Positions 17,676-49,931 of a stretch of 49,931 nucleotides of DNA are shown piece after piece. Under the pieces are notes generated by a model. It was given only the letters and a program-made list of their open reading frames with translations, searched no databases and was not told the DNA's origin. The position numbers were made by a program, and so were the translations under genes. How positions within the stretch are numbered: position 1 is the first letter of the stretch; each line of letters opens with the position of its first letter. This DNA comes from an uncultured Gammaproteobacteria bacterium (GTDB lineage Bacteria > Pseudomonadota > Gammaproteobacteria > CAKMZV01), in contig CAKMZV010000016.1 in the NCBI GenBank assembly GCA_929200535.1, forward strand, positions 1-49,931, written 5' to 3'.

Positions 17676-17697
17676 TAAATATACAAAAGGAGCAACA

Positions 17698-18819: not shown

Positions 18820-18822
18820 TTC

Positions 18823-18844
18823 GAGACTTTTATGCAAAGGTCTC
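18823..18844. repeat. 22-bp remnant of the fold-back element with both ends
   Basis: The sequence consists of a shortened left end fused to a complete right end (GAGAC-TTTTATGCAAAGGTCTC). Flanks AGTTC (18818-18822) and AGTTT (18845-18849) match at four of five positions, as expected for a 5-bp duplication. This looks like a copy that lost its interior by deletion. It lies between the convergent dioxygenase and LysE-type genes. Confidence 0.7.
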
Positions 18845-18848
18845 AGTT

Positions 18849-19472: not shown

Positions 19473-19493
19473 AATGTTATTTTTTTATTTCTA

Positions 19494-19507
19494 TTATGCA
19501 AAGGTCT
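19494..19507. repeat. solo right end of the fold-back element
   Basis: The run TATGCAAAGGTCTT is the right end with the last C changed. No left end lies near. It sits just upstream of the LysE-type gene, in its promoter region. Confidence 0.5.
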
Positions 19508-19563
19508 TAATTATAGGTCTTAAGATGATTTTTATGATATATGATACCAATACTTGAATTTTT

Positions 19564-19579
19564 GTAAAGGTTGCTTTAC
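19564..19579. promoter_or_regulatory. candidate operator palindrome before gmaS
   Basis: GTAAAG-GTTG-CTTTAC is a perfect 6-bp inverted repeat in the 288-base divergent gap between the LysE-type gene and the amine operon. No regulator gene lies beside it, so the binding protein is unknown. The rest of the gap is AT-rich with fold-back remnants and no clear sigma-70 boxes. Confidence 0.3.
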
Positions 19580-19671
19580 TTAAAAAAATATCAAAATTTG
19601 TTATTTTTTTACCCCCTTTATGAGTTGGCTTAATGTAAAATTTATCATCCGTGTGGGTTTAAATTTATTAT

Positions 19672-19690
19672 GAGATTATGCAAAGGTCTC
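19672..19690. repeat. minimal fold-back remnant
   Basis: GAGATTATGCAAAGGTCTC joins a truncated left end to the full right end, like the 22-bp remnant at 18823. The flanks ATTAT and ATACT match at three of five positions. It lies 70 bases before gmaS. Confidence 0.5.
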
Positions 19691-19760
19691 ATACTTGGAG
19701 TTTGCAAAATTAGTTTGTCGTCATTGATAGAATTTTCTTGTTAAAGACTAAAAAATTATT

Positions 19761-21077: not shown

Positions 21078-21113
21078 TGATAGCTAAGTAAATAAAAATA
21101 CACACTAATAATT

Positions 21114-22361: not shown

Positions 22362-22408
22362 GGGAGTAGCATAAATCATTTTTAATATAATTAAATTATT
22401 TTACTATT

Positions 22409-23743
22409 ATGACACAAAACTCTTCTCTTCCAAAATCGGCTGATTATGTGATTATCGGTGCAGGAATGCATGGCTTATCAACAGCGTATCATTTGGCGTG
22501 TTTGCAACCAAATAAATCAATTGTTATTATTGATAAAGGGGAATTAAATGAAGGAGCCACCAGTATAGCCTGTGGAGTAGTAAGAAATAATTATTATCAG
22601 CCTGCGATGCGTAAGCTGATGGCACATTCAGTAGATGTTTGGGAACAACACCAAAAAGAATTGCATTATCATCCAGTGGGTTATATGCAAATTAGTATGG
22701 AGGCAATGCACGAAGACGTTGCTTCAATTTATGAGCAACAAAAAGCAATTGGGTATGAGTCTGTGTTTATTGAAGGCGAAAAAGACAGCCGTGACTATAT
22801 GCTTAATTTGTTTGATGATTGGCAGGCTCCAAATATCACCTCTGTGTTACACGAAAAAAGAGGTGGGTTTTCACACAATACCTTAGCCGTTACAGGGCTT
22901 GCTAAAATGGCAACTGATAAGGGTGTGATTATTGTTACTCAAGCAGAAGTTACTGAATTAGAAAAATCAAATACAAGTAATGCTATTAGCAAAGTGCACA
23001 CGGTTAAAGGGGCTATTGAATGTGAGCAATTGATTATTGCTCCAGGACCTTGGGTAAGAACATTTTGGAAAATGTTAGACTTACCAGATTATATTGATCT
23101 TCTCGGTGCGGATGGCAAACTTCATAATACCAGAATGTGGCACTACTGGATGTTGCAAGAAGGTGTGCTTGAGGTGGATCCATCAATGTTAGTGACGAAT
23201 GATGGCAAAGTGCCGCCGGTTCTTCACGTGGATTCGGATGCCCCTCTTCACTCTGACTCAACTGGTAAGCTGTTGATGGAAGAGCCTTGGGGAATTTATT
23301 ACAAGCCTGATGCGCATTTTGGCGGTATTCAAGGTGGCTTTGCACCGTATCCTTTAACAGAAGACTTGGATGATGTTTCTGTTGATCCTTATGGTCATAA
23401 ATCAAAAAAATATCTTGTGACACGTGAGTTTATTGATGTTTGGTGTTCAGCATTAGCAGCTTGCCAAAAGCGTTTTGAAGGGTTGACTCCAAAATATAAG
23501 GATGTACCTTCTGGTGGTTTAGGTTGCTTAACTCCAGATAGCTTCCCGGTATTTGATGTATTTAGTGAAAATGCGTATGTTATTGCAGATGCTAATCATG
23601 GGTATAAAATGCTCGGAGTTGGCAAATTAGTAGCAGAAGATTTATGTGGAAAATCCAGTGATTTATTGGAACCTTTCCGCTTTAGTCGCTATGCAGAGGG
23701 GAAATTACATCCTCTTAGCAATAGTCCTTTCCCTTGGAGCTAA
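22409..23743 (+). CDS. FAD-dependent oxidoreductase, D-amino-acid oxidase family
   Basis: 444 residues. FAD-binding YVIIGAGMHGLSTAYHLA near residue 14, then GELNEGATSIACGVVRNNY in the position where SoxB-like proteins contact flavin, and a C-terminal YVIADANHGYKMLGVG that closes the FAD site. It is a diverged paralogue of the SoxB-like protein just upstream, not a duplicate. Placed next to a second GS-like ligase, it resembles the PuuA/PuuB arrangement where a gamma-glutamylated amine is oxidised by a DAO-family flavoprotein. That substrate class is inference. Confidence 0.7.
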   Translation: MTQNSSLPKSADYVIIGAGMHGLSTAYHLACLQPNKSIVIIDKGELNEGATSIACGVVRNNYYQPAMRKLMAHSVDVWEQHQKELHYHPVGYMQISMEAMHEDVASIYEQQKAIGYESVFIEGEKDSRDYMLNLFDDWQAPNITSVLHEKRGGFSHNTLAVTGLAKMATDKGVIIVTQAEVTELEKSNTSNAISKVHTVKGAIECEQLIIAPGPWVRTFWKMLDLPDYIDLLGADGKLHNTRMWHYWMLQEGVLEVDPSMLVTNDGKVPPVLHVDSDAPLHSDSTGKLLMEEPWGIYYKPDAHFGGIQGGFAPYPLTEDLDDVSVDPYGHKSKKYLVTREFIDVWCSALAACQKRFEGLTPKYKDVPSGGLGCLTPDSFPVFDVFSENAYVIADANHGYKMLGVGKLVAEDLCGKSSDLLEPFRFSRYAEGKLHPLSNSPFPWS

Positions 23744-23797
23744 GTTTTAGCTTTAATTGAATTTTTTTAATTTTTAAATATAACTAAGGAGATTATA

Positions 23798-25264
23798 ATG
23801 ACTGATTTAGATAGACATGTTAATCAAGACGGACGTGCTGATTTAGTCAAGCAGGTTCGTTCTAAAATCAAAGAATTAGGAATTACTTACATTTACTTCC
23901 AATTCATTTCGGTGACAGGCAGAATTGTTGGTAAAGGAATTCCTGCTGATCATTGGGAAAGAGTGGCTAATAAAGGCTTCCAGTTGGTTTATGGTTCTAC
24001 AGCAAACTTGTATGTTGATCGCCATGGTGATTATATTGGTTATGGACCAGAAGCCTCTGAGCTTATTGGTATTCCAGATCCTGAAACATTTTGTCAACTT
24101 CCTTGGGATAAGCGTATTGCTCGTGTTTTTTGTACTTGCTTTAGAAATCGTGAGGAAAAAAATAATCCAGGTGCACATTTGACTTCTGATTGTCGTGGTA
24201 ACTTACGTATGCATCACGAAGAGCTAAAAGCCAAGCATGGTTTGTCTTTACGTGTGGGTACTGAGCCTGAAATGATGTGGCTAAAACGTGATGAAAATGG
24301 CAAACTTGCTGGCATCACTAAGCCTAACTGTTATCACGTTGACCAATTTGAAGAATTACGCCCAACAGTAATGAAAGTAATCGAATACTCACAAGCAATG
24401 GGTTTGGATATGATTCAAGGGGATCACGAAGATGCTCCAGGGCAATTAGAACTTAACTGGAACTTTGACGATGTATTACGTAATGCGGATCGTCTTAGCA
24501 CATATCGTCAAATTTGTGCCCAAGTGGCACGTGAGCATGGCTTAGTAGCTTGCTTTATGACCAAGCCATTTGTTGGCGTATCTGCTTCAGGTTGCCACCA
24601 CAATATGTCCCTTTGGAAAGGTGGTGAGGATAAGTTAAACAGAATGCATCATGATGTATTGCCTGGAATGGATGAGGTTTTCTCTTATGTTAACGGTGGT
24701 GAAAACACCTTTATGCCAGATCCTAAAATTGATGCTTATAAACCAGCACCAACAGGTTTATATTCAATTGGTGGCGTAATGAAAAACATTCGAGCATTAA
24801 CGGCATTAGGCTCTCCTACGGTGAACTCTTATCGTCGCCTTTGGGATACTGGCTTTTGGGCTCCTATTTTTGCTGACTGGGGTTATCAAAACCGTACTTG
24901 TGGTTTGAGAATTTCTGCTCCAGGTCGTTTTGAGTATCGTTCAGTCGATTCAATGGTGAATCCATATATGATGGGCAGTGCTTTGATTAAATCTTTTGAC
25001 GATGGTATCAGCAATAAGCTGGATCCGGGTGAGCCAGAAGAGCGTAACATTTACGAAGCAATGGCAGAAGGAAAAGATGTTGAAAGATTGCCAATGTCTC
25101 TCGGGGAAGCCTTAGAGGCTCTTGAGCAAAATGAAACCATAAAATCAGCTATGCCTGATGAAATGTATAAAGTTTTCTCTCATTACAAACGTAATGAGTG
25201 GGAATTATTTAACCATACGGTTACAGATTGGGATTTGGAAACTTATTGGGACTACCTTCCATAA
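23798..25264 (+). CDS. second glutamine-synthetase-like gamma-glutamyl ligase (GlnT type)
   Basis: 488 residues behind a strong site (AAGGAG). GS-fold motifs are all present: TEPEMMW with the Glu pair near residue 160, HEDAPGQLELNW near 210, SGCHHNMSLW near 267, SPTVNSYRRLW near 343 and the C-terminal GRFEYRSVDSMVNPYMMG. It is longer than the GmaS upstream and clearly a different subgroup (no ELRLMDGATNPY). The substrate amine is unknown. With the preceding FAD oxidoreductase it may form its own ligation/oxidation branch. A strong terminator follows 23 bases after the stop. Confidence 0.72.
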   Translation: MTDLDRHVNQDGRADLVKQVRSKIKELGITYIYFQFISVTGRIVGKGIPADHWERVANKGFQLVYGSTANLYVDRHGDYIGYGPEASELIGIPDPETFCQLPWDKRIARVFCTCFRNREEKNNPGAHLTSDCRGNLRMHHEELKAKHGLSLRVGTEPEMMWLKRDENGKLAGITKPNCYHVDQFEELRPTVMKVIEYSQAMGLDMIQGDHEDAPGQLELNWNFDDVLRNADRLSTYRQICAQVAREHGLVACFMTKPFVGVSASGCHHNMSLWKGGEDKLNRMHHDVLPGMDEVFSYVNGGENTFMPDPKIDAYKPAPTGLYSIGGVMKNIRALTALGSPTVNSYRRLWDTGFWAPIFADWGYQNRTCGLRISAPGRFEYRSVDSMVNPYMMGSALIKSFDDGISNKLDPGEPEERNIYEAMAEGKDVERLPMSLGEALEALEQNETIKSAMPDEMYKVFSHYKRNEWELFNHTVTDWDLETYWDYLP

Positions 25265-25287
25265 CTTGTAACGTATAAGCTAAGCTT

Positions 25288-25339
25288 GCCTGAGGGTTTA
25301 GGTTGCCTCTATGGTAGCCTCGTTCCCTCAGGCTTTTTT
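25288..25339 (+). terminator. Rho-independent terminator after the second GS-like gene
   Basis: GCCTGAGGG (25288-25296) pairs perfectly with CCCTCAGGC (25325-25333), followed by six T. The loop folds further (AGGTTGCC against GGTAGCCT with wobble pairs), so the full hairpin is long. It separates the gmaS block from mgsABC; partial read-through is possible. Confidence 0.85.
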
Positions 25340-25381
25340 GACCTATAAAACCATAAAAAATTGTAATAAAGGAGAACGTTT

Positions 25382-26323
25382 ATGTGCGGAATAGCAGGTC
25401 TTATTCATAAAAATAAAAAGGGAGCAGACGTAGGCAGTCAAATGTCTTCAATGCTTCAGGCGCTAAAGCATCGTGGTCCAGATTCAACTGGCTTTGCTGT
25501 CTATAGTGATGGACAAAAAGATAACCACTATGTTGTGCGTTTAAAGGTGGCTGAGCAGGCTGATTTGGAAAAAGGATTTGACATTCACCAAATCGTTAAA
25601 GATAGAACCGAGGCAGCCAAAGGAAGATTGGAACAAAGTGGTGCCAAAATTGTTGCTGAAGAGAATCCGACTGAGTATGCAGGTCGTTATACTATCAATT
25701 ATGATGGTGATATGAAAGTATTAGCGGATTATCTTGAGGATTTAGAAGGGGTTGAGGTTTTATCTATTGGTCGTAGTTTAGAGTTGATTAAAGACCTTGG
25801 TGATGCTGAAGTTGTATCAGAGACTTACGGGCTAAAATCTTTCAAAGGAACTCACGCTATTGGGCATACTCGTATGGCAACCGAATCTGATGTTGATATT
25901 CGTTCGGCTCATCCTTATTGGGCATATCCTTTTAGTGATATATCCGTTGTGCACAATGGTCAGCTAACTAATTACTGGACTAATCGTCGTGACTTAGAGC
26001 GTCGTGGGCATCGTTTTTCATCGAACTGTGATTCGGAACTTATTGCCGTTTATTTGGCAGATCGTATCGAGAAAGGTGATGATTTGGAATCAGCGATGAA
26101 GTCTTCAGTTGAGTATCTTGATGGTGTGTTTACGTATATTGTTGCCACCAAAGATATGCTTGGAATGGCAAAGGATACTATGGCAGCTAAGCCAATGGTT
26201 TTGTTTGAAAGTGATGATCTTATTGCGATGGCATCGGAAGAAATTTCTATTCGCCAGATATTTGATCATGATGTAGATACATTTGACCCTTATGATGGAG
26301 AAGTAAAAGTATGGAAAAACTAA
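25382..26323 (+). CDS. mgsA: N-methylglutamate synthase subunit A (class II glutamine amidotransferase domain, GlxB)
   Basis: 313 residues behind AAAGGAG. The N-terminal nucleophile is Cys2 in MCGIAGLIHK. ALKHRGPDSTGFAVY near residue 30, GHTRMATESDVDIRSAHPYW near 160 and VVHNGQLTNYW near 188 are the class II amidotransferase elements, with an insertion of roughly 100 residues between the first two, typical of GlxB. It corresponds to the glutaminase domain of glutamate synthase. In the pathway it removes the methylamino group from gamma-glutamylmethylamide. It overlaps mgsB by 13 bases. Confidence 0.85.
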   Translation: MCGIAGLIHKNKKGADVGSQMSSMLQALKHRGPDSTGFAVYSDGQKDNHYVVRLKVAEQADLEKGFDIHQIVKDRTEAAKGRLEQSGAKIVAEENPTEYAGRYTINYDGDMKVLADYLEDLEGVEVLSIGRSLELIKDLGDAEVVSETYGLKSFKGTHAIGHTRMATESDVDIRSAHPYWAYPFSDISVVHNGQLTNYWTNRRDLERRGHRFSSNCDSELIAVYLADRIEKGDDLESAMKSSVEYLDGVFTYIVATKDMLGMAKDTMAAKPMVLFESDDLIAMASEEISIRQIFDHDVDTFDPYDGEVKVWKN

Positions 26324-27156
26324 GCACACAAAATAAATCCCATGAAATGGGATTGCACTCGGAAAAACTTTCGGGACGCACACAACAACGTTTCTTTTCT
26401 GCAGAAGAATCAGAAAACTTTGTTTATCCGTTTTCTTTTGAAGTTGACTATGATAAAAGTGGCACGATTGATGCCGAAAATTTATCCAGCAAAGAAGTCA
26501 ATATTGAAATTAGAAAATTGATGGAAAAAGGTGTTGGTGATATTACGATTAAAAATCCTAAATCACGACACGGACTTGGCGTTGGTATTCTTAATCGCTT
26601 AAAGCTAACATTTGAAGGAAGCCTTGGTTACTTTGGGTGTGGTTTAATTGATGGACCAAACATTCATATCAAAGGTCGAGTGGGTTGGTCTTGCGGTGAG
26701 AATATGATGGCTGGAAGCGTTTTAATTGAGAAAAATGCGGGCTCTACTTTTGGCGCGGCTATTCGTGGTGGTGATTTAATCTGCAGAGGTGATGTGGGTG
26801 CCAGAACGGGTATTGACCAAAAAGGCGGCACCATTATTGTCGGCGGTAGAACGGGAGCTTTCTCAGGTTTTATGATGCAACGTGGTCGAATGATTATTTG
26901 TGGAGATGCAGGCATTAACCTCGGTGATTCAATGTATGATGGCACGATTTACGTTGGTGGCAACATTGAAAGTTTAGGTGTTGATGCGGTTGAAGAGCCA
27001 ATGAGTGAGTTAGATGCAAGCTGGCTAAAATCAAAATTAGATTTATATGGCATTCCTACCAAAAATGGCGTCGAGAATATGAAGAAAATAGTTTCAGGAA
27101 AGCAGTTATGGAACTATGATAATCTTGAGCCAAGTGAGAAGAAATTAGTTCTCTAA
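26311..27156 (+). CDS. mgsB: N-methylglutamate synthase subunit B (GltB C-terminal GXGXG domain, GlxC)
   Basis: 281 residues. From about residue 110 on it has the GXGXG beta-helix repeats of the glutamate synthase C-terminal domain: GRVGWSCGENMMAG, GAAIRGGDLICRGDVGARTG, GGTIIVGGRTGAFSG, GRMIICGDAGINLGDS and GTIYVGG. This domain is structural, between amidotransferase and synthase sites. The start lies inside the mgsA end, so translation is coupled. Order A-B-C matches known mgs loci. Confidence 0.85.
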   Translation: MEKLSTQNKSHEMGLHSEKLSGRTQQRFFSAEESENFVYPFSFEVDYDKSGTIDAENLSSKEVNIEIRKLMEKGVGDITIKNPKSRHGLGVGILNRLKLTFEGSLGYFGCGLIDGPNIHIKGRVGWSCGENMMAGSVLIEKNAGSTFGAAIRGGDLICRGDVGARTGIDQKGGTIIVGGRTGAFSGFMMQRGRMIICGDAGINLGDSMYDGTIYVGGNIESLGVDAVEEPMSELDASWLKSKLDLYGIPTKNGVENMKKIVSGKQLWNYDNLEPSEKKLVL

Positions 27157-27223
27157 CTCGTACTTGGTATTGCAAAAATCAGAAAAATAATTCATTTAAT
27201 CATTTATACAGAAGGAGAAAAAA

Positions 27224-28561
27224 ATGAGTACAAATGACGACAAATATCGCTTAGGAAGCAGTTTTATGTTCCCTAAGGAAGTCATGAATGACATCCATGT
27301 TAAGTCAGAATTAGGGCGTTATCGTATGCGTGCGTGGTCTCTTTTCAAAAAGATACCAACTTGGGATGACTTAACTTTTATGCCAGGTACATTGACACGT
27401 TTTGTAATTGAAGGGTATCGTGAAAAATGCGAAACCAAAACAATTATTGGACCAAACTGTAAAAATCCATTAGAGTTGGATATTCCTATTTACATCACAG
27501 GAATGAGTTTTGGTGCGTTAAGCTATGAAGCCAAAACGGCATTAGCTCGTGGTGCTACGATGGCTGGTACAGCAACTTGCTCAGGTGAAGGTGGTATGAT
27601 TCCTGATGAAAGACGCTATTCCAGCAAATGGTTTTACCAATGTATTCAGTCACGTTATGGTTTTAATCCAAACCATTTACGTCTTGCTGATGCGGTTGAG
27701 TTTTTTATTGGACAAGGCTGTAAGGTGGGTCTTGGTGGGCATTTGATGGGTCAAAAAGTAACCGATCAAATTGCTGAAATGCGTTCACTTCCTGCAGGTA
27801 TTGATCAACGTTCACCAGCACGTCATCCAGACTGGTTAGGACCTGATGATCTTGCCTTGAAAATTGAAGAAATTCGTGAAGCGACTGATGGGCAAATTCC
27901 AATCCAATTGAAACTTGGTGCAGCTCGTGTTTATGATGATGTAAGAATGGCAGCCAAAACTGGACCAGACAGCATTTACATAGATGGTATGGAAGGCGGT
28001 ACTGGTGCAGGTCCTCACTTGGCAACAGAAGAAACAGGTGTTCCTGGGATTGCAGCTATTCGTCAGGCACGTCAGGCATTAGATGATGTTGGTAAATCAG
28101 GTGAGATTTCTTTAGTTTATGCAGGTGGTATTCGTAATGGTGGTGACGTTGCTAAAGCCGTTGCCCTTGGTGCTGATGCTGTTGCTATCGGGCATTCTGC
28201 AATGATTGCTCTTAACTGTAATAAGGATATTCCCGGTGCGGATTTTGAAAAAGAAATGGGCGTTAAAGCTGGAGATTGTTATCATTGTCATACAGGGCGT
28301 TGCCCCGTTGGTGTTGCAACTCAAGACCCAGTTTTACGCAAACGTCTTGATCCAGATGAAGCGGCTGAGCGTGTTTATAATTTCTTACACTGTCTTGCGA
28401 TTGAATGTCAGATGATGGCACGTGCTTGTGGCAAAACTAATGTACATTCATTAGAACCCGAAGATCTTGCGGCTCTTACTATGGAAGCGTCAGCGATGGC
28501 ACAAGTGCCTTTAGCTGGTAGCCAACATACAGTAGGTCGTCCTGATATGACTCGCTTCTAA
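27224..28561 (+). CDS. mgsC: N-methylglutamate synthase subunit C (FMN/Fe-S synthase domain, GlxD)
   Basis: 445 residues behind GAAGGAG. It matches the FMN-binding barrel of glutamate synthase: ITGMSFGALSYEAKTALARGA near residue 92, IPIQLKLGAARVY, YIDGMEGGTGAGP near 247, VYAGGIRNGGDVAKAVALGADAVAIG near 300, and the iron-sulfur motif Cys352-x2-Cys355-x4-Cys360 (GDCYHCHTGRCPVGV). It joins the methylamino group to 2-oxoglutarate to make N-methylglutamate. Confidence 0.88.
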   Translation: MSTNDDKYRLGSSFMFPKEVMNDIHVKSELGRYRMRAWSLFKKIPTWDDLTFMPGTLTRFVIEGYREKCETKTIIGPNCKNPLELDIPIYITGMSFGALSYEAKTALARGATMAGTATCSGEGGMIPDERRYSSKWFYQCIQSRYGFNPNHLRLADAVEFFIGQGCKVGLGGHLMGQKVTDQIAEMRSLPAGIDQRSPARHPDWLGPDDLALKIEEIREATDGQIPIQLKLGAARVYDDVRMAAKTGPDSIYIDGMEGGTGAGPHLATEETGVPGIAAIRQARQALDDVGKSGEISLVYAGGIRNGGDVAKAVALGADAVAIGHSAMIALNCNKDIPGADFEKEMGVKAGDCYHCHTGRCPVGVATQDPVLRKRLDPDEAAERVYNFLHCLAIECQMMARACGKTNVHSLEPEDLAALTMEASAMAQVPLAGSQHTVGRPDMTRF

Positions 28562-28580
28562 TTCTAAGGAAATAAAGAAT

Positions 28581-28615
28581 ATCATCCAAGCGTAAATATA
28601 AATAGCTTGGATGAT
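28581..28615 (+). other. intergenic stem-loop after mgsC
   Basis: ATCATCCAAGC (28581-28591) pairs perfectly over 11 bases with GCTTGGATGAT (28605-28615). No T run follows, so it may act in mRNA processing or stability, or as a weak terminator, between mgsC and the unknown 127-residue gene. Confidence 0.65.
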
Positions 28616-28646
28616 AAATTGACAAAAAATTTATTAAGGAGTTACT

Positions 28647-29030
28647 ATGTCAAAAAATATTGATCATTTTATTAATACCGATGGATTAGATTCCAGTCGT
28701 GAAAAAGAAATTGGGCAACATATTGGTTATCGCTACGATGTAAACTTGGTGCCTGACCTTAAATACCTTACGCCATTTTTGAAAAAATATATGGAGATTA
28801 TGGGATGGTCTGATTTGAACTGGTTAGAAGATGTTCATATGGGCTATGAAGAAAATCGTCCAGCAGTATTTGATCGCAATATTAACGGTTGGGTAAGTGT
28901 TCCTGAAGATATGAATTTGCCGGATAGTCAGCAAGAACGTGATATGATTGCACGTGAATTGCTGATTAAATTTCAAATGTCTGAGAAACATCCTTTGGTG
29001 GACTTGAACAAAGCTTATCGTCGTTTTTAA
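28647..29030 (+). CDS. unknown 127-residue protein in the mgs/mgd operon
   Basis: Not recognised. 127 residues behind a good AAGGAG site. It is acidic, soluble, and has no signal peptide or membrane segment. It is rich in aromatic residues in the middle (YLTPFLKKYMEIMGWSDLNW, about residues 40-59), with conserved-looking GWVSVPEDMNLP near 87 and a helical, charged C-terminus ending NKAYRRF. It has no cysteine. It sits between mgsC and the SoxD-like subunit, each side with its own stem-loop, so it is likely a partner or assembly protein for MgsABC or MgdABCD (inference from position only). Confidence 0.75.
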   Translation: MSKNIDHFINTDGLDSSREKEIGQHIGYRYDVNLVPDLKYLTPFLKKYMEIMGWSDLNWLEDVHMGYEENRPAVFDRNINGWVSVPEDMNLPDSQQERDMIARELLIKFQMSEKHPLVDLNKAYRRF

Positions 29031-29036
29031 TTAATC

Positions 29037-29064
29037 GGTTGCCTCTATTGATTTAGAGGCAGCC
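29037..29064 (+). other. intergenic stem-loop before mgdB
   Basis: GGTTGCCTCTA (29037-29047) pairs with TAGAGGCAGCC (29054-29064) over 11 positions with one G-U pair. The left arm plus next base, GGTTGCCTCTAT, also occurs inside the terminator at 25288-25339, so the two structures share a sequence block. Confidence 0.65.
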
Positions 29065-29088
29065 TATAATTTTTGGAGAATTTTACCA

Positions 29089-29367
29089 ATGAAACTAATG
29101 CCATGCCCTTTAAATGGTCTTCGTAATATTTCAGAATTTTCTTACGGAGGTGAGGTGGAAGATATGCCAGATCTCAAAACAGCTACCTCGCAAGAATGGG
29201 CGAAGTATATTTTTTATGATGAAAATCCAAGGGGTATGGTTAAGGAATGGTGGTGTCATACGGCTACCAGCTATTGGTTTATTGCTGAAAGAAATACTGT
29301 AACAGATGAAATTACAGCTACTTATGATCCTTCAAAGGTTTATTCAAAAAGAGTTGATTTTGAATAG
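29089..29367 (+). CDS. mgdB: N-methylglutamate dehydrogenase subunit B (sarcosine oxidase delta-like)
   Basis: 92 residues, the family size. SEFSYGG near residue 15, EWAKYIFYDENPRG near 35 and WFIAERNTVTDEI near 63 follow SoxD. In bacterial SoxD a zinc is held by Cys6, Cys9, His59 and Cys63 (corynebacterial numbering). Here Cys6 and the His (WWCHTATS) remain, but the second Cys is Asn (CPLN) and the last is Ser, so the classical zinc site is incomplete. This may be a subfamily trait. It lies 37 bases before mgdC. Confidence 0.8.
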   Translation: MKLMPCPLNGLRNISEFSYGGEVEDMPDLKTATSQEWAKYIFYDENPRGMVKEWWCHTATSYWFIAERNTVTDEITATYDPSKVYSKRVDFE

Positions 29368-29404
29368 TTTTTAACCAGCATAATATTTTGTATTTATAAC
29401 ATCT

Positions 29405-32305
29405 ATGAGCGATAACTTTTCTTATCCCAATTTACTTGTTGATCAAAGTAAAAAAGTTACCTTTAACTTTGAGGGAGAATCTTTTACAGGCTATGCCGGA
29501 GACAATGTTGCTACGGCACTTTGGCGTAATAATCAAAAAATAATTTCTCGTTCTTTTAAGTATCATCGTCCGAGAGGAATCTTTAGCCTAACAGGGCATG
29601 ATGCTAATACATTGGTGCAATTGCCTGAGGAAGGAAATGTACCAGCGGATCTTTTACCTATTACCGATGGATTAACCGTTAAAGGGCAACATTATAGCGG
29701 TAGCTTGAAGAATGATTATTTTTCAATTTTTGGGAAATTTTCTAAATTCTTGCCCGTTGGTTTTTACTATAAAGCGTTTTATAAAAATAACAGCTGGGAT
29801 AAAATTTGGGGTGGTTTCTTTAGAAAATTTACTGGTCTTGGAATAATCAACCCTAAGAATGAAGGAGGCTACTACGATAAGAAATACCTTTTTTATGATG
29901 TGGTTATTATCGGCTCTGGATTAGCGGGTTTGCAGTCGGCACTTGAGTCAGCAAAATCAAGTAAAGCACAAGTATTGATTATCGAGCAAGAATCTTGCTT
30001 GGGAGGCTCGCTTAATTTTTCTCGTTTGGATGTTGAGGGTAAAAAAGCTCAAGAATATCGTGATAAGTTAGTGGCAGAAGTTGAGAAAACAGACAATATT
30101 ACGATAATGCTTAATAGCATTTGTAATGCCGCTTATAGCGATAATTGGTTGTCAGTTATTCAGGATAAAAGGGCGTTTAAATTACGTGCTAAACAGCTTA
30201 TTTTATGCCCCGGGAATTATGAACAAGCCTTAGTTTTCCATAACAATGATTTGCCTGGTGTGATGCTTAGTACCGCGGCACAACGGTTATTGAAACTCTA
30301 TGGCGTAAAACCTGGTGAAAAAGCGGTTATTGCAACGGCTCATGACGATGGTTATCTTGTTGCTTTAGATTTACACGAAGCTGGAGTTGCAGTACAACGC
30401 ATTGTTGATTTACGACAAAATGTGAGTGACAACTCTTATCTTGAGGCAGTTAAAAAGCTGGGTATTGAGGTATCTCAAAAATCAACAATTTATGCGGCTA
30501 ATTCTGCAAATAAAGTGCTTGCAAGTGTACAAATGGGCAAAATCAGCACTACTGGAGAATGTGCATCGGATACCGAAACTATTGATTGCGATTTGCTTTG
30601 CTTGAGTGGCGGCTATATGCCAGCTTATCAGCTTGCCTGCCAAATTGGGGCAGCCTTAGATTTTTCTGAAGAGGACAATAAATTCATTGTTAAAAAATTG
30701 CCGAAAAACTGTTACACTGTTGGTACTGGGGATGGCGTTGAATTACCTTCTTTGATTGAAAACAAGGCTAAAATTGTTGCTCATCAGGCTCTTTCTGAGC
30801 TTGGTTTGGCTGAAGGAACTGCACCCAAACCAAGCACTGAAAAAGAAAAAATCAATGAATTTGCTTACCCTATTTTTGCTCATCCAAAGAGCAAGGAATT
30901 TGTCGATTTTGATGAAGATTTGCAAGTTGCTGATATTATCAATGCTGTGCGTGAAGGTTATACCGATATTCAATTAGTTAAGCGTTTTTCTACACTTGGT
31001 ATGGGTCCCTCTCAAGGTCGCTTCTGTGCTTTTATGAGTAGTATTTTGGTTTCTAATTACGATAAATCACGGACTATTGGGGATGTTGGGGTTACCACCG
31101 CTCGCCCTCCATATGCTGCAGAAAAAATTGGACATCATGCCGGCAGAAGTTTTTTCCCAGAACGTCATAGTAATATGCATCATTGCCATACAGATGCTGG
31201 GGCACAATTCCTGATTGCTGGTCCGTGGATGAGACCAGCCTATTATGGAGCCAAAGGAAGTATGTTAGAGTGCGTTGCCAAAGAAAGCCTTAATGTACAT
31301 AATAATGTTGGTGTTGTCGATGTATCGACACTGGGTGGGTTAGAAATTCGTGGTCCAGATGCGGCAGAATTTATCAATCGGATGTACACTTGGAATTTCC
31401 TCAAACAACCAGTCGGTCGTGCACGTTATGCATTATTAACGAATGAATCTGGGGTTGTGATTGATGATGGTGTTGCCTGTCGATTTTCTGAGCAGAATTA
31501 TTATGTAACTGCCACCACTGGAGGGGTTGATCGTGTTTATCTACAGTTTCTTAAATGGAATGCTCAATGGCGTCTTAAGGTTGATATAGCAAATGTCACT
31601 TCCGCTTGGTGTGGAGTTAATATTGCAGGTCCTAATTCACGTAAAGTTTTACAGAAAATTTGTCAAGATGTTGATTTATCTGTTGAAGGCTTCCCTTATA
31701 TGGGAGTGAGAGAGGGAACGGTTGCGGGCATACCAGCGCGTTTAATTCGTGTTGGCTTTGTCGGAGAACTTGGTTATGAAGTTCACGTGCCACAACACTA
31801 TGGTGAATATCTATGGGAGAGCATTATGGAGGCGGGCAAAGAATTTAATATTGCTCCGTTTGGTATTGAAGCTCAACGTCTTCTTCGTCTGCAAAAAGGA
31901 CATATTATTATTAGCCAAGACACCGATGCTACCACCTATCCTGAGGAAGTACATATGTCATGGGCAGTGGGTAAGAAAAAACCATTTTTTGTTGGTCAGA
32001 AAGCGATTCAGATTGTTGATGAGAAAAAACCAGTTCGTAAATTGATTGGTTTTGAGGTCTCTTCCTCACAAACCGTGCCTAAAGAAAGTCATCTGTGTTT
32101 TAATGGTGATCAACTTATTGGTAGAATCACCTCCTGTGCGGCATCCGCAAAACTACAAAAAACAATTGGCTTGGCGTATGTTGATCCTGATTTTAGCGAG
32201 CCAGGGGCAACGCTTCAAATTCGTTGTGATAATAAAGAAATGGTTTTGGCAAAAGTCGTCAATTTACCTTTTTATGATCCAGAAAATGCTCGCCAAGAAC
32301 TATAG
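29405..32305 (+). CDS. mgdC: N-methylglutamate dehydrogenase subunit C (sarcosine oxidase alpha-like)
   Basis: 966 residues, the length of SoxA/MgdC. Residues 1-100 form the N-terminal fold with SFKYHRPRGIFSL; a dinucleotide-binding domain has YDVVIIGSGLAGLQSAL (GSG near 170-172); the C-terminal 370 residues are a GcvT-like tetrahydrofolate domain with VVDVSTLGGLEIRGPDAAEF, RVGFVGELGYEVHVP and APFGIEAQRLLRLQKG. In the heterotetramer the imine or formaldehyde made at subunit A travels to this folate site to give methylene-tetrahydrofolate. No clear ribosome binding site is visible. Confidence 0.85.
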   Translation: MSDNFSYPNLLVDQSKKVTFNFEGESFTGYAGDNVATALWRNNQKIISRSFKYHRPRGIFSLTGHDANTLVQLPEEGNVPADLLPITDGLTVKGQHYSGSLKNDYFSIFGKFSKFLPVGFYYKAFYKNNSWDKIWGGFFRKFTGLGIINPKNEGGYYDKKYLFYDVVIIGSGLAGLQSALESAKSSKAQVLIIEQESCLGGSLNFSRLDVEGKKAQEYRDKLVAEVEKTDNITIMLNSICNAAYSDNWLSVIQDKRAFKLRAKQLILCPGNYEQALVFHNNDLPGVMLSTAAQRLLKLYGVKPGEKAVIATAHDDGYLVALDLHEAGVAVQRIVDLRQNVSDNSYLEAVKKLGIEVSQKSTIYAANSANKVLASVQMGKISTTGECASDTETIDCDLLCLSGGYMPAYQLACQIGAALDFSEEDNKFIVKKLPKNCYTVGTGDGVELPSLIENKAKIVAHQALSELGLAEGTAPKPSTEKEKINEFAYPIFAHPKSKEFVDFDEDLQVADIINAVREGYTDIQLVKRFSTLGMGPSQGRFCAFMSSILVSNYDKSRTIGDVGVTTARPPYAAEKIGHHAGRSFFPERHSNMHHCHTDAGAQFLIAGPWMRPAYYGAKGSMLECVAKESLNVHNNVGVVDVSTLGGLEIRGPDAAEFINRMYTWNFLKQPVGRARYALLTNESGVVIDDGVACRFSEQNYYVTATTGGVDRVYLQFLKWNAQWRLKVDIANVTSAWCGVNIAGPNSRKVLQKICQDVDLSVEGFPYMGVREGTVAGIPARLIRVGFVGELGYEVHVPQHYGEYLWESIMEAGKEFNIAPFGIEAQRLLRLQKGHIIISQDTDATTYPEEVHMSWAVGKKKPFFVGQKAIQIVDEKKPVRKLIGFEVSSSQTVPKESHLCFNGDQLIGRITSCAASAKLQKTIGLAYVDPDFSEPGATLQIRCDNKEMVLAKVVNLPFYDPENARQEL

Positions 32306-32343
32306 GCTTTAAAATATTAAATATAAAAAACAATTTGCTTAAT

Positions 32344-33033
32344 ATGACTACCGCAAATCAAACTAACTATCGTGCAGCCCTTTATCGTACACACCAGCAG
32401 GGTGGTGCTAATTTTATTCCTTTTGGTGAGGGAGTCATTGTGAGTGATTATGGGGACAGCAATAAAGAAAAAGAACAGGTTAAAAAACTATCACTTGCTG
32501 ATTTAACTTCAGTAGATCGTATTGGTTTTAAAGGGGCTGATACCCCTGATTGGTTAGAGAAACAAAAAGTAGAGCTTCCATCACAGCCCAATAAGGCGGT
32601 TCAACTTGCGGATGGTTCAATCGTAGCTCGCTTATCATCGAATGAGTTTTTTGTGTTGGGAGATTTAAAAAATCAAGCACAAACGTGTGCAAACCTTAGA
32701 AAAAACTGGGAATTTAAGGAAGATTATTTATGTTATTTGCTTCATCGTAATCATAGCCACACGCATTTTGTGCTTAGTGGTGAATATGCTGAGGAAGTAA
32801 TGCCGAAGATATGTGGTGTTAATCTTAAGGCTCCTGATTTTGATTTTCTTGATGTTGCACAAACCTCTGTTGCTCGCCTTAGTGCAGTTGTTGTTAAAAA
32901 TAAGCTGAGTGATGGCACTACCGCATTCCATATTTTATTTGATAGCTCTATGGCTGAATATATGTGGATGTGTTTAGAGGATGCCATTGCAGAGTTTGAG
33001 GGGCAACCAGTAGGTATTCAAGCATTAGAATAA
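32344..33033 (+). CDS. mgdD: N-methylglutamate dehydrogenase subunit D (sarcosine oxidase gamma-like)
   Basis: 229 residues from ATG 32344; a TTG three codons earlier is in frame but has no support. SoxG is a weakly conserved GcvT-fold relative. Visible elements are LADLTSVDRIGFKGADTPDWL near residue 58, ARLSSNEFFVLG near 98, and the C-terminal FDSSMAEYMWMCLEDAIAEF. Assignment rests on this pattern plus position directly after the alpha-like subunit (38 bases). Confidence 0.78.
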   Translation: MTTANQTNYRAALYRTHQQGGANFIPFGEGVIVSDYGDSNKEKEQVKKLSLADLTSVDRIGFKGADTPDWLEKQKVELPSQPNKAVQLADGSIVARLSSNEFFVLGDLKNQAQTCANLRKNWEFKEDYLCYLLHRNHSHTHFVLSGEYAEEVMPKICGVNLKAPDFDFLDVAQTSVARLSAVVVKNKLSDGTTAFHILFDSSMAEYMWMCLEDAIAEFEGQPVGIQALE

Positions 33034-33088
33034 GGCAATCTAAAAAAAATGGCTTTTTAAAACTTCTCAAGATACGATTATTTTTGTT

Positions 33089-35431
33089 ATGCTAAATTTT
33101 CAGAATGAAGTTCCGATGTTTGCTGACTCCCAAACAGTTGGAGATACGCAAGAATTATACTATCTTAATAGTGAAGCATTACAGCTTGAGCTTGATGCTG
33201 GTGAACGAGTTGAAATATGCGATATAGAAGGGGATCAGCGCTGTGGCGTATTGCTTTTTGATGTCAAAAGTAAAAAACCCTCTAATTCTTCCGTGCTTAC
33301 CGACTGTCAGTCAGTAAAAGTTTCTCTATCTGATTTTCAAGATGAGGATTTTTTTGAACAGCTACAATCTATACTTAAAAAAAATCAGTTAGATGCAGAT
33401 AATTTGGAGATGGTAGAGTTATCTTCAGTAGGGGGAGTTGCTGGTAAAACTGCCTTATTTGAGGTGAAGCAGCAGGGCATTGGTATCGTTTTGGTTTTTG
33501 GTTCTTCAATGTGTGTTGAAAAACAAAACTCTCCGACAGATATTCGTTTGATGGTACGTCGGAATTTTGAGAAAACCGATGGTAAAGAGCAAACATTCCC
33601 GTTACCCACTCCTTTAGCAGAGCCCATTCAAGAAATTCGGGTGAAAAACTCAACTGCCGAATCATATACGGTCAAAAAAGGAGAGTATATTCAAATTATT
33701 GATGTTGAAGGTCATCAGTGTTCAGATTTTCAATGTTTCTCAGTCAGCGACTTAGAAAAAGGTGAGAGCTTAGGGATTGATCCAACAGTCACAAGGTCAA
33801 TTATGGGATCAAGTTACCCAGCACCTGGGGTACATGATAAATATTACAATCTTGACTCCGTTCCTTTAGTAGAAATTGTGCGTGATACAGTATGGCGTCA
33901 TGATACCTTTGGCTTAGCTTGTAATAGTAAATATTATGAGGATGTGGGTTTTCCGGGACATCCTAATTGCACTGATAACTTTAATAAAGCGTTAGGAGAG
34001 TATGATGTCAAGCCTCGTTTAAATTGGGTCGCAGTTAATTTCTTTTTTAATACCAATATTGAAGAATGCCATAGCCTCTCCTCAGATGTTTCTTGGTCTC
34101 GCCCGGGAGATTATGTCTTACTCAGAGCATTGAGTGATTTAGTTTGCGTCTCCTCTGCGTGTCCTGATGATGTTAGCCCTGCTAATGATTTTAAACCAAC
34201 CGATATTCACGTGCGTATATATGGCAAGGAAAATGAATTTTCCCAAGCCTGCACATTAAGACCAACCCCAACATTTAAGCCACTTATGACTAAAGAAACT
34301 GGATTTCATGCGTGTACTTCAAAACTCACTCGTAATTTTATTGATTACAATGGTTATTGGTTAGCCTCAGATTATAGAGAATATGGTGCGATTAATGAGT
34401 ATTGGGCATGCCGTGAAGGCGTTATTGCGGTGGATTTATCACCACTAAGAAAATTTGAAATTTATGGTCAAGATGCCGAAATTTTAATGCAATATGCACT
34501 TACTCGCAATGTGCGTAAACTGGCTGTCGGGCAAGTGGTTTATTCAGCAATATGCTACGAAAATGGTGGAATGATTGATGATGGTACTTTATTTCGTATG
34601 GGAGATAATAATTTCCGTTGGATTTGTGGCACGGATTATTGTGGTGTTTGGTTGCGCGAACTTGCAGAAAAAATGAACTTAGATGCTTGGGTAAAATCTT
34701 CTACTGATCAATTACATAATTTTTCAGTACAAGGTCCTAAAAGTCGTGAGCTATTAAAGAAAATTATTTGGACTTCCAAGACCTGTCCAACGATGGATGA
34801 ATTAGGATGGTTCCGCTTTACAAATGCTCGATTACATGAAGAAAAAGGCTTACCTATTGTCATTTCTCGCACAGGTTATACTGGCGAGTTAGGGTATGAG
34901 CTTTTTGTGCATCCCTCAAGAGGTGAAGAGCTTTGGCAAGAGGTGTTTAAAGCAGGTGAAGAATTTGGTATAGCCCCATTGGGTTTAGATGCCTTGGATA
35001 TGGTTAGAATTGAAGCAGGTTTGGTATTTGCTGGCTATGAATTTTGCGATCAAACAGATCCTTTTGAAGCAGGTATCGGATTTACCGTTCCTCTAAAAAG
35101 CAAAGAGGATGATTTTTCTGGACGAGAATCTATAGCAAGACGTAAAGAAAACCCAGTCAATAAATTAGTTGGTTTAGAATTAGAAGGTAATGAAGTTGCA
35201 GCTCATGGAGATGATGTTTATATAGGTATGCAAAAAGTTGGCGTGATTACCAGTGCCACTCGTTCACCAATTTTAAAGAAAAATATTGCATTTTGTAAAA
35301 TGTCAGTACAAGCCACGGAGTTAGGGACACAAGTAGAAGTGGGGAAATTAGATGGTCATCAAAAACGATTACCAGCTAAAGTCATTGCATTCCCGTTTTA
35401 CGACCCTGAAAAATTAAGAGTGCGTTCATAA
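33089..35431 (+). CDS. DUF1989-GcvT fusion protein
   Basis: 780 residues. The first half (about 10-400) has two DUF1989-like stretches, as in urea-carboxylase-associated proteins: GERVEICDIEGDQRCGVLLF near 38 and GEYIQIIDVEGHQCSDFQCF near 200, then FGLACNSKYYEDVGFPGHPNC near 273. The second half (about 410-780) is a GcvT/aminomethyltransferase domain with GVIAVDLSPLRKFEIYGQDA, SRTGYTGELGYELFV and APLGLDALDMVRIEAGLVF. The GcvT part suggests folate-dependent transfer of an aminomethyl or methyl group; the DUF1989 role is not established. It closes the mgs/mgd block and is followed by the betaine transporter. Confidence 0.75.
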   Translation: MLNFQNEVPMFADSQTVGDTQELYYLNSEALQLELDAGERVEICDIEGDQRCGVLLFDVKSKKPSNSSVLTDCQSVKVSLSDFQDEDFFEQLQSILKKNQLDADNLEMVELSSVGGVAGKTALFEVKQQGIGIVLVFGSSMCVEKQNSPTDIRLMVRRNFEKTDGKEQTFPLPTPLAEPIQEIRVKNSTAESYTVKKGEYIQIIDVEGHQCSDFQCFSVSDLEKGESLGIDPTVTRSIMGSSYPAPGVHDKYYNLDSVPLVEIVRDTVWRHDTFGLACNSKYYEDVGFPGHPNCTDNFNKALGEYDVKPRLNWVAVNFFFNTNIEECHSLSSDVSWSRPGDYVLLRALSDLVCVSSACPDDVSPANDFKPTDIHVRIYGKENEFSQACTLRPTPTFKPLMTKETGFHACTSKLTRNFIDYNGYWLASDYREYGAINEYWACREGVIAVDLSPLRKFEIYGQDAEILMQYALTRNVRKLAVGQVVYSAICYENGGMIDDGTLFRMGDNNFRWICGTDYCGVWLRELAEKMNLDAWVKSSTDQLHNFSVQGPKSRELLKKIIWTSKTCPTMDELGWFRFTNARLHEEKGLPIVISRTGYTGELGYELFVHPSRGEELWQEVFKAGEEFGIAPLGLDALDMVRIEAGLVFAGYEFCDQTDPFEAGIGFTVPLKSKEDDFSGRESIARRKENPVNKLVGLELEGNEVAAHGDDVYIGMQKVGVITSATRSPILKKNIAFCKMSVQATELGTQVEVGKLDGHQKRLPAKVIAFPFYDPEKLRVRS

Positions 35432-35730
35432 GTCCAACAATGACCATTGGATTGACATTCTTAAAGAGTATATTTTATTAAACTTTTTAGCAGGAAAGTC
35501 AAAATATTTTAAATTTCTGATACAATGTTATCTATTATTATACATTTACGCTTAAACAAAATGGGTTGAGCTATTACAGGTTTAGTATAAACAATTTTTG
35601 TTAATTTAAGAAAATTGTTTGTATTTTTGAGTGTTATCCGAAAGGGTGATGTTTTTAGTTAAAATTTTCCTATTTAGTGGGTTAATTTTAGAATTATTTC
35701 TAACTTTTATATTAATTAAAGGAGAGGTAT
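35432..35730 (+). promoter_or_regulatory. promoter region of proX
   Basis: 299-base gap without a credible gene. TTGACA at 35453-35458 is a consensus -35 with a poor -10 about 17 bases on (TTATTA). TACAAT at 35521-35526 is a good -10 with a weak -35. Either could start the proXVW transcript. A strong AAGGAGAGG site lies just before the proX ATG. No terminator is seen after the preceding gene. Confidence 0.4.
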
Positions 35731-36684
35731 ATGAAGTTTTTATCAAGAAAATTATTTGTTACGTTATTAGGAGCGTTCTTTTTAAGCGCAAGCCATTTGG
35801 CACTTGCAAAGGACTCTAAAGAACCAATTGTTATACCTACACATAATTGGTCTAGCCAAATTGTGATGGCGTATGTTATTGGTGGTATTTTTGAAAGCAT
35901 GGGAAATCGTGTTGATTATAAGTCAGCTGACTCACAAGCAGTTTATGAGTCTGTTCGTACTGGAGACATTACACTTTCTCACGAAGTATGGCAATCAGCA
36001 TTTGGTAAATCATTCTATAATGCGATGGAAAAAGGCGGATTAATTGACGTCGGTAATCACGAAGCCTTAACCTTGGAAGATCTTGGTGTTCCTAAGCATG
36101 TGATTGATGCTAACCTTTGCCCAGGATTACCTGATTGGGAAGCGTTAAAACAACAAAAATGTGTTGATGCATTCAAAACAGCAGATTCTGGCAATAAAGG
36201 TCGTATTCTTGAAGGCCCTCAAACATGGCATGGTGATTTGATTCCTAATCGTATCAAAGCATTAGGTCTTGCTGATAAGTATGTTGTTAAATTTGCGGGT
36301 AGTGCAGATGCTTTATGGGCAGAATTAGCTTCAGCTAAAAAAGATGGTCGTGGTATCCTTATGTTTAACTGGACGCCAAACTTTACGGATGCTGATGGTT
36401 TCTCCTTCATCAAATTCCCTCCATATTACGATGGTTGCCGTATTGCTGATGGTGGTGATGAAGCTTGTGGTTCTCCTGATGGTTGGTTGAAAAAAGCTGC
36501 ATACTATAAAATGCCAAGAAAATGGCCAGCAGCTTATACAACTTTCTCTAAGCTATCTTTTAACACAACTCAAATTGGTCAAATGGCTGCTCTTGTAGAC
36601 ATTGATAAAATGAGTCACAAAGATGCTGCTAAAAAATGGTTAGCAGACAATAAAAAAGTATGGCAACCATGGACTAAGAAATAA
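35731..36684 (+). CDS. proX: glycine betaine/proline-type ABC transporter substrate-binding protein
   Basis: 317 residues. Signal peptide about residues 1-26, cut after LALA. The mature part is an OpuAC/ProX domain: IVIPTHNWSSQIVMAYVIGGIFESMG near 32, SHEVWQSAFG near 85, LEGPQTWHGDLIPNRIKALGL near 163, and ILMFNWTPNFTDADGFSFIKFPPY near 209 with the aromatic residues used for quaternary-amine binding. Pairs of Cys (near 122/135 and 230/240) could form disulfides in the periplasm. The ligand could be betaine, choline, carnitine or a similar compound. Confidence 0.85.
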   Translation: MKFLSRKLFVTLLGAFFLSASHLALAKDSKEPIVIPTHNWSSQIVMAYVIGGIFESMGNRVDYKSADSQAVYESVRTGDITLSHEVWQSAFGKSFYNAMEKGGLIDVGNHEALTLEDLGVPKHVIDANLCPGLPDWEALKQQKCVDAFKTADSGNKGRILEGPQTWHGDLIPNRIKALGLADKYVVKFAGSADALWAELASAKKDGRGILMFNWTPNFTDADGFSFIKFPPYYDGCRIADGGDEACGSPDGWLKKAAYYKMPRKWPAAYTTFSKLSFNTTQIGQMAALVDIDKMSHKDAAKKWLADNKKVWQPWTKK

Positions 36685-48489: not shown

Positions 48490-49371
48490 TTAAGTAATAG
48501 GATTATTATCGATAAGGCGTACATCTTGCAAATATACGGCTGCAAATAAACGTGCGTTTAGCTTTGCATTTGGTGATTCTACAAGCTGCAAATCATCATT
48601 GTCACGCACCTCAAAATAATCAATTGAAAAATATTTTTCTAAGTGTTTTTTTGCCTCCTTTAAAATAATTTGCCATTGCTCTTTTGATTGGCAACTTACT
48701 AGTCTTTGAACCGTTTCCTTCATACAATTAGGTAATTGTGTAGCAAACTCTAATTGCTCGGCATCAAAATAATTATTTCTTGAGCTTAACGCTAATTTTT
48801 TGGCATTACGTTTGGTGGGAGAAGAGAGAATTTTTATTGTTGGGAACAGCTTTGCGGTTATTTTTTGAAGGATAAGAAGTTGCTGATAATCCTTTTCACC
48901 AAAACAGGCACAATAAGGTTGCACCAATTCAAACAACCGACATACCACCTTAACCACCCCATCAAAAAAATGCGGACGACTCACCCCACAAAGCACCTTT
49001 GATAAGGGCTCTACATCAGGATAGTTTTGCAAGTTATAAATAGATAGAGCAGCATTCGATGGATAAATCTCCTCATTTTTTGGGATAAAGATAGCAGAAC
49101 AAGCCGTATTTGCCAAAAGGGCAATATCCTTTTCAAGTGTACGCGGATAAGAAGCAAAATCTTCTTGCGGAGAAAACTGTGCAGGATTCACAAAAATACT
49201 CACCATCACTTTATCGCAATGTGCAGCGACGGTTTCCACCAAAGACAAATGCCCACTATGCAAATTACCCATAGTTGGCACCAAGCCAATCCGGCAATCT
49301 TTATATTGATTCTGATACTGCTGTAATTGCTCTAAGCTACTAAGATTTTGAATATTATGTGAGGGCGTCAT
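48490..49371 (-). CDS. panC: pantothenate synthetase
   Basis: 293 residues. Joins pantoate and beta-alanine with ATP. Nucleotidyltransferase motif MGNLHSGHLSLVE near residue 34, VSIFVNPAQFSPQEDFASYPRT near 58, HFFDGVVKVVCRLF near 133, FGEKDYQQLLIL near 156 and LALSSRNNY (the KMSKS-like loop) near 193. It lies three bases before lptC on the same strand, an unusual neighbour for panC. panB is not in the window. Confidence 0.92.
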   Translation of the reverse strand: MTPSHNIQNLSSLEQLQQYQNQYKDCRIGLVPTMGNLHSGHLSLVETVAAHCDKVMVSIFVNPAQFSPQEDFASYPRTLEKDIALLANTACSAIFIPKNEEIYPSNAALSIYNLQNYPDVEPLSKVLCGVSRPHFFDGVVKVVCRLFELVQPYCACFGEKDYQQLLILQKITAKLFPTIKILSSPTKRNAKKLALSSRNNYFDAEQLEFATQLPNCMKETVQRLVSCQSKEQWQIILKEAKKHLEKYFSIDYFEVRDNDDLQLVESPNAKLNARLFAAVYLQDVRLIDNNPIT

Positions 49372-49452
49372 TATAAAACAAGCACGGAGGCAAAACCACT
49401 GAAAAATTATCTAAACTAAGAGTTAATTTTACCCTGATAAGATACTTATTTC

Positions 49453-49470
49453 GAGACCGTTGCAAAATGC
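49453..49470. repeat. solo end of the GAGACCG element family
   Basis: GAGACCGTTGCAAAATGC, near-identical to the inverted copy at 43341-43359. It is followed by an A/G-rich run ending in a TTTTTT stretch; no partner end is seen. Confidence 0.45.
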
Positions 49471-49640
49471 AAGCAAGCGAAAGAAAAAAGAGAAAAATTT
49501 TTTCTCGGAATGCTTAAGATGTAGTAATTTACTGTCATTCCTCTTTCTGCCATCCTGAAGCCTTTTCCTGTCATTCTGAGGCTTGCCCTCAGAATCTCTT
49601 GCACGGAGTATTACTCATTCCCACGTAGGAGCACAAACAA

Positions 49641-49667
49641 GCTCCCTCTCCCTCAGGGAGAGGGAGC
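49641..49667. repeat. perfect 12-bp palindrome, GC-rich
   Basis: GCTCCCTCTCCC-TCA-GGGAGAGGGAGC. It is part of a patch of dispersed intergenic repeats that also contains the 'cattctgag' type sequence near 49575. Confidence 0.6.
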
Positions 49668-49687
49668 CAGCGTCCTCCCTTTTACTC

Positions 49688-49711
49688 GTTCCCACGCAGG
49701 AGCGTGGGAAC
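49688..49711. repeat. GTTCCCACGC palindromic repeat
   Basis: GTTCCCACGC-AGGA-GCGTGGGAAC, a perfect 10-bp inverted repeat. A decayed copy lies at about 49618-49640. Repeats of this form are widespread in bacterial intergenic regions. Confidence 0.6.
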
Positions 49712-49743
49712 CATTAACCATTGACAATTAACAATTAACCATT
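49709..49743. repeat. imperfect 7-bp tandem repeat (AACCATT)
   Basis: Five heptamers: AACCATT, AACCATT, GACAATT, AACAATT, AACCATT. The first overlaps the end of the preceding palindrome by three bases. Confidence 0.7.
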
Positions 49744-49779
49744 ATTTTGTGGATTTTTTCTTTTTTTACTTAAATATGC

Positions 49780-49785
49780 TATAAT
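49780..49785 (+). promoter_or_regulatory. extended -10 promoter near the right edge
   Basis: TATAAT preceded by TGC (TGCTATAAT) is a consensus extended -10. No strong -35 is seen in the T-rich stretch upstream, which such promoters do not need. It points right, toward the possible ORF at 49883. Confidence 0.55.
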
Positions 49786-49882
49786 GACTTTAATTAATTT
49801 GTATTTATTTGGCATAAAAAACGCCATTTTGCCGTTGTTTTTTCCTCGGACTACTATTTTAATTTTTGAACCCTATCAAACT

Positions 49883-49931
49883 ATGCGTATATGTGCCTAT
49901 TTTCTAAAATCACCCCCCCCCCCCCCCCCCC
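49883..49931 (+). CDS. possible start of an ORF running into a 19-base C tract (partial)
   Basis: ATG 49883 opens a frame reading MRICAYFLKS and then enters an unbroken run of 19 C (49913-49931) in the proline frame, where the window ends. About 100 bases upstream is an extended -10 promoter. Such tracts inside a 5' coding region are a hallmark of phase-variable genes, but no ribosome binding site is visible and the tract may simply be where an assembly stopped. Confidence 0.25.
   Translation, partial: MRICAYFLKSPPPPPP

Follow-up and report, generated by a model that had tools for sequence, protein, structure and literature searches.

A poly-C tract at a contig end and a candidate phase-variable Fn3/Lcl_C lipoprotein gene in an uncultured gammaproteobacterium

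Does a contig that breaks off inside a run of cytosines end in an artefact, or at the beginning of a switchable gene, and what kind of gene would follow? This question is raised by the right edge of the window analysed here, a DNA stretch of 49,931 nt. As the window spans the entire contig G000:C16 (C16 below) of a draft genome of 1.97 Mb in 50 contigs, its right edge is the contig end.

Promoter, leader and start codons at the right edge of C16

The features of this edge are compiled in Table 1. An earlier note had described an extended -10 promoter, an ATG frame at 49883 and, from codon 11 of this frame, a run of 19 C reaching the window end. The promoter element is present, beginning a few bases upstream of the segment covered by that note, and the coordinates and counts given for the ATG and the C run proved correct. 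The promoter motif is kept across the nine aligned paralogous upstream regions; in the case of contig C26, the aligned stretch starts 3' of the extended -10, which was read from separate sequence.

Table 1. Features upstream of and at the right edge of contig C16
Feature	Position	Strand	Basis or remark
panC (Pantoate_ligase)	48490-49371	minus	domain match
Extended -10 promoter element TGCTATAAT	49777-49785	+	sequence; TGnTA(T/C)AAT in nine paralogous upstream regions
Conserved 5' leader common to paralogous loci	49793-49882 (extent inferred)	+	leader alignments
First ATG, phase 0, MRICAYFLKS then poly-proline	49883-49931	+	open up to contig end
Second ATG, phase 1, MCLFSKIT then poly-proline	49891-49931	+	start and frame homologous to intact C8 and C26 lipoproteins
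TAA shutting the third phase right before the tract	49905-49907	+	frame reading
Poly-C tract of 19 C or more, ended by the contig border	49913-49931	+	codon 11 onward of ATG 49883

The promoter is followed by a leader of about 90 nt. A structured leader RNA was ruled out, as no Rfam family matched the region 49372-49931 at its gathering score and the leader did not fold better than shuffled sequences (z -0.89). Absence of a Shine-Dalgarno sequence was likewise dismissed as a special feature, because, of 36 gene starts examined in the window, no more than 9 carry such a motif.

Ten codons (ATG CGT ATA TGT GCC TAT TTT CTA AAA TCA) lead from the first ATG to the tract. Phases 0 and 1 each have an ATG of their own and run into the tract without a stop; phase 2 is closed. 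Both open phases read the tract as poly-proline. The frame of ATG 49883, put forward in the earlier note, is indeed open into the tract, but the start homologous to those of the intact paralogs is the second ATG. From this homology, ATG 49891 is the likely start of the C16 gene and ATG 49883 belongs to another frame.

The cytosine run and the contig borders

In a simple base-composition model, about 5e-8 runs of at least 19 C are expected in 1.97 Mb, and the longest other C/G run within the window comprises 6 nt. Runs of at least 12 C occur at two places genome-wide, namely at the end of C16 and in contig C21, where 27 C are followed by 30 nt up to the contig end. The two tracts occupy the same homologous site in their paralogous 5' regions, which share 76% identity. 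C16 thus carries a long uninterrupted repeat, far beyond chance, in a 5' coding region, as is typical of homopolymer-driven phase-variable genes, and within this one assembly the tract lengths of the two paralogs are 27 (C21) versus at least 19 (C16).

Sequencing or assembly might nevertheless have produced the run artificially, for instance as a homopolymer tail of low quality or by chimeric extension. Runs of at least 15 C are present in 43 of 369 genomes of the class (own genome included), and of 29 tract loci in other genomes, 14 (counted by eye) have a contig end within 150 nt. C/G runs at draft contig ends are therefore not rare, and a run in such a place carries little weight on its own. 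The tracts of C16 and C21 also lie at or near contig ends, and the final 30 nt of C21 match nothing. Against an artefact stands the occurrence of the run at the same homologous base in two contigs with diverged flanks, a site that is C-rich in the paralogs C8 and C26 as well. Moreover, the C21 tract is internal to its contig, and dark-cycle artefacts of two-colour sequencing yield G, not C, on the outward strand. We consider an artefact improbable. The shared homologous position in C16 and C21, a strong point drawn from sequence comparison, is the main argument for a genuine tract.

Positions were tabulated for 23 poly-C loci of other genomes of the class. Eleven of the 29 loci were viewed by eye together with their flanking frames, and none resembled the start of an Fn3/Lcl_C gene. 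The string formed by the pre-tract sequence and the tract had no match in viral contigs.

The contig borders were compared by measuring, for 98 of them (excluding the two borders of C50, which consist of N), the longest border string recurring among the border stretches examined. The recurring string measured exactly 55 nt at 45 of the 98 borders, which was the mode; the assembly therefore appears to have used 55-mers (k=55). For contigs C27 and C4, the terminal 55-mer was found inside C16, 42 and 61 nt from its end, so that both loci share the path of C16 before the tract. The final 55-mer of C16 consists of 36 nt plus 19 C, and that of C21 of 25 C plus 30 nt. These ends are consistent with, without proving, a point where a 19-C copy would part from longer copies in C16 and a point where a 25-C copy would join in C21. 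They fit tract lengths differing among copies or cells, and coverage loss could also end a contig. An assembly break at a variable homopolymer had already been suspected from the sequence, and C16 does end where a 55-mer graph would branch over tract length. Three further contigs (C31, C46, C30) stop short of the site by 11-18 nt and share no 55-mer among the borders examined. If the tract is read as unstable, this helps to explain why numerous contigs of the genome stop where they do.

Ends of the GAGACCTTTGCA type adjoin several leaders and sit at many contig borders, for example at L010, L015 and L215. We presume that they resemble the ends of insertion sequences.

Paralogous loci behind the shared leader

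Promoter and leader were detected at ten places, on C16, C21, C27, C30, C31, C4, C46, C3, C8 and C26, with C3 containing the leader's beginning only. In eight of the ten cases the contig breaks off at the tract site or close to it; C8 and C26 continue through it. C16 ends inside the tract and C21 30 nt beyond. Judged by eye against the paralogs, C31 stops about 11, C46 about 13, C30 about 18, C27 about 24 and C4 about 43 nt before the site; C3 ends farther upstream than C4, and both stop before the ATG. The two loci that assembled through lack a long tract and have a short C-rich sequence at its site (CTCCCCTCCCTC in C8 and CTCTTCCCCC in C26). Among 36 genomes searched for leader homologues (own included), the own genome alone matched, and it is the sole member of its GTDB order in the set searched.

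The genes of C8 and C26 behind this leader encode lipoprotein-type products with a signal peptide, Fn3 repeats and a C-terminal Lcl_C domain. Both proteins carry a lipobox-like LVACGG. The C8 product measures 588 aa (signal peptide FLLIAVFLPLLVACGG) and that of C26 1364 aa within the stretch examined. At an E value of 1e-10 the C8 protein had matches in 68 of the 369 class genomes including the own one, mostly to its C-terminal part; among solved structures it matched Fn3-type ones only. C16 has its promoter, leader and start region in common with this Fn3/Lcl_C lipoprotein family. Continuation of C16 into a gene of the same type is predicted from the paralogs; the window itself is free of Lcl_C sequence.

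As an alternative, the tract may be real and unstable and the gene behind it decayed or of another kind than an Fn3/Lcl_C lipoprotein, promoter, leader and tract forming a start cassette that moves or recombines and is placed before different genes. The sequence following the C21 tract speaks for such a cassette. In none of the phases do its 30 nt show likeness to the signal peptide of C8 or C26, and their GC content (17 of 30, counted by eye) exceeds the 37.6% of the window. With up to 3 mismatches allowed they had no other match in the own genome, nor were matches found in viral contigs (exact 25-mer), phages or plasmids at the settings used. C21 would lead either into another kind of gene or into a chimeric end, and its post-tract nucleotides, taken as sequence, count against the lipoprotein-family reading. 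Furthermore, repeats surround the region upstream of the leader (192 genome matches for 49600-49912; among the matches listed, most are to the small repeats), and other lipoproteins of this genome have the signal peptide in common without the leader. On the other side, both leader loci that were assembled through are Fn3/Lcl_C lipoprotein genes, and orphan 5' and 3' halves are about balanced. Lcl_C matched 25 times genome-wide, many of the matches lying at contig starts. Sorting by eye gave nine inward-reading orphan 3' halves of this gene type (C5_s, C6_e, C13_s, C14_s, C18_s, C21_s, C24_s, C30_e and C47_e), and on the 5' side eight orphans of the leader type and another three (C15_s, C25_s and C26_s) whose promoters differ. 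Five further short Lcl_C ends probably belong to a neighbouring small Lcl_C gene. Taken together, we regard a cassette leading into some other gene at C16 as rather unlikely and keep to the Fn3/Lcl_C lipoprotein family as the expected continuation.

A related signal peptide and Fn3-like repeats were also seen in lipoprotein-type genes at L177, L178, L168, L161 and L205 (contigs C25, C26, C15, C7 and C30, respectively); their upstream regions differ from those of the leader loci and are devoid of a long tract. A second lipoprotein-type group (L208, L209, L215, L221 and L222 on C5, C6, C13, C20 and C22) has the related signal peptide LKILIIALCLPLIVACG. Some of its members enter Gly-Asp or Gly-Ser-Asp repeats, and C5 ends within one.

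A candidate two-of-three switch

From these data we think it probable, with some reservation, that the right edge of C16 is the start of a phase-variable Fn3/Lcl_C (DUF1566, adhesin-like) outer-surface lipoprotein gene, one of a paralogous family. The earlier proposal of a phase-variable surface gene is thereby retained in part: homology supports a real tract at the 5' end of a lipoprotein-family coding region, but start and frame had to be corrected. Surface location, variation in tract length and the resulting expression are predicted for C16 from this family and from the tract itself.

The poly-C tract would fall where the signal peptide's n-region is encoded, and slipped-strand mispairing would alter the number of C and thereby shift the downstream frame. 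With two out-of-frame ATGs leading into the tract uninterrupted, and a stop in the third phase, two of three tract lengths would permit translation of the downstream gene. The two productive lengths would use different starts, perhaps at different levels, and the third would be off.

This layout recurs in C21, partly through different ATGs. Phase 0 has an ATG there too (MRIYTYFLKS); in place of the second ATG, which is lost, another ATG upstream (MLNYAYIHLFSKIT) serves the same phase, so that in both loci two of the three phases are open with an ATG. The first ATG is kept in all six tract-bearing or truncated loci reaching the site (C16, C21, C27, C30, C31 and C46) and is absent from both tract-less genes, C8 and C26. 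As the loci are few and related, this distribution is suggestive only.

The tract might also code for a proline stretch of roughly fixed or of indifferent length, with no switch attached. Poly-proline in both open phases agrees with this. A pure CCC run of 19-27 nt ahead of the expected hydrophobic core would, however, be an unstable way of encoding proline, and one phase is stopped. We judge such a stretch very improbable and maintain the switch as our reading.

Several loci with the same promoter, leader and tract would allow cells to display changing subsets of the proteins. Extending this, up to eight loci may share a start cassette of promoter, leader and poly-C tract in which two of three lengths are productive owing to the conserved pair of out-of-frame ATGs. 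Large Fn3/Lcl_C lipoproteins would then be displayed in changing combinations and be on most of the time, the cassette possibly having been recombined onto different bodies. We offer this extension tentatively and hold it to be possible rather than probable.

The family of C16, as a lipoprotein family switched by a homopolymer, is probably a further member of an already known type. C16 resembles the intragenic poly-C/poly-G contingency loci of Neisseria, Campylobacter and Helicobacter in that a surface-type gene has a long G/C homopolymer near the 5' end of its coding region. Unlike these, its tract is found in an unplaced lineage, among paralogous lipoprotein genes that have their leader in common, and is known here from one assembly. 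For N. meningitidis, the accessible part of PMC5084427 names G/C homopolymers as the commonest repeats among strong phase-variation candidates, describes tracts of at least 8 nt as mostly variable and records multiple ATGs around 19 of 55 strong tracts, a trait that C16 parallels with more than one ATG around its tract. Alternative starts are not treated in the accessible part of a study on H. influenzae repeats (PMC2651432). The proposed two-of-three-on layout would be unusual.

Concerning the predicted product, C8 and C26 end in an Lcl_C/DUF1566 (PF07603) domain like Legionella Lcl, for which the accessible part of PMC11162425 reports recognition of glycosaminoglycans. In place of the collagen-like region of Lcl, C8 and C26 have Fn3 repeats and a lipoprotein-type signal. 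The same type of C-terminal domain is found in the DUF1566 variable proteins of diversity-generating retroelements; in one study of human microbiomes, annotated proteins varied by retroelements carried DUF1566 more often than any other domain (PMC4159848, accessible part). No reverse transcriptase of this type was detected in the draft genome. Its single RVT_1 match is fused to Cas1, so that retroelement-type variation is not indicated and, within the limits of a draft assembly, a diversity-generating retroelement was rejected. The RT-Cas1 protein comprises 986 aa and is located at G000:C18 29264-29884 (L290 370-3327, minus strand); presumably, its N-terminal part may be Cas6-like.

Should the proposed switch hold true, a phase-variable surface repertoire would exist in a lineage for which the set searched contains no other genome of the same order, and homopolymer switching would be tied to the Lcl_C/DUF1566 class. 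Among the matches listed, the literature searched held no link of homopolymer switching or phase variation to DUF1566.

Upstream of the locus, panC has relatives at 80 loci, with named genera at 38-44% identity. Between panC and the extended -10 lie about 400 nt rich in genome-wide repeats. Positions 49500-49740 are dense in small repeats, with hairpins such as TCCCTCTCCCTCAGGGAGAGGGA and TTCCCACGCAGGAGCGTGGGAA and with ATTAACCATTGACAATTAAC units. Farther away in the window, a cluster at 17494-36684 encodes sarcosine-oxidase-like, aminomethyltransferase-domain, gamma-butyrobetaine-dioxygenase-like and ProX-like proteins, which suggests the use of methylated amines.
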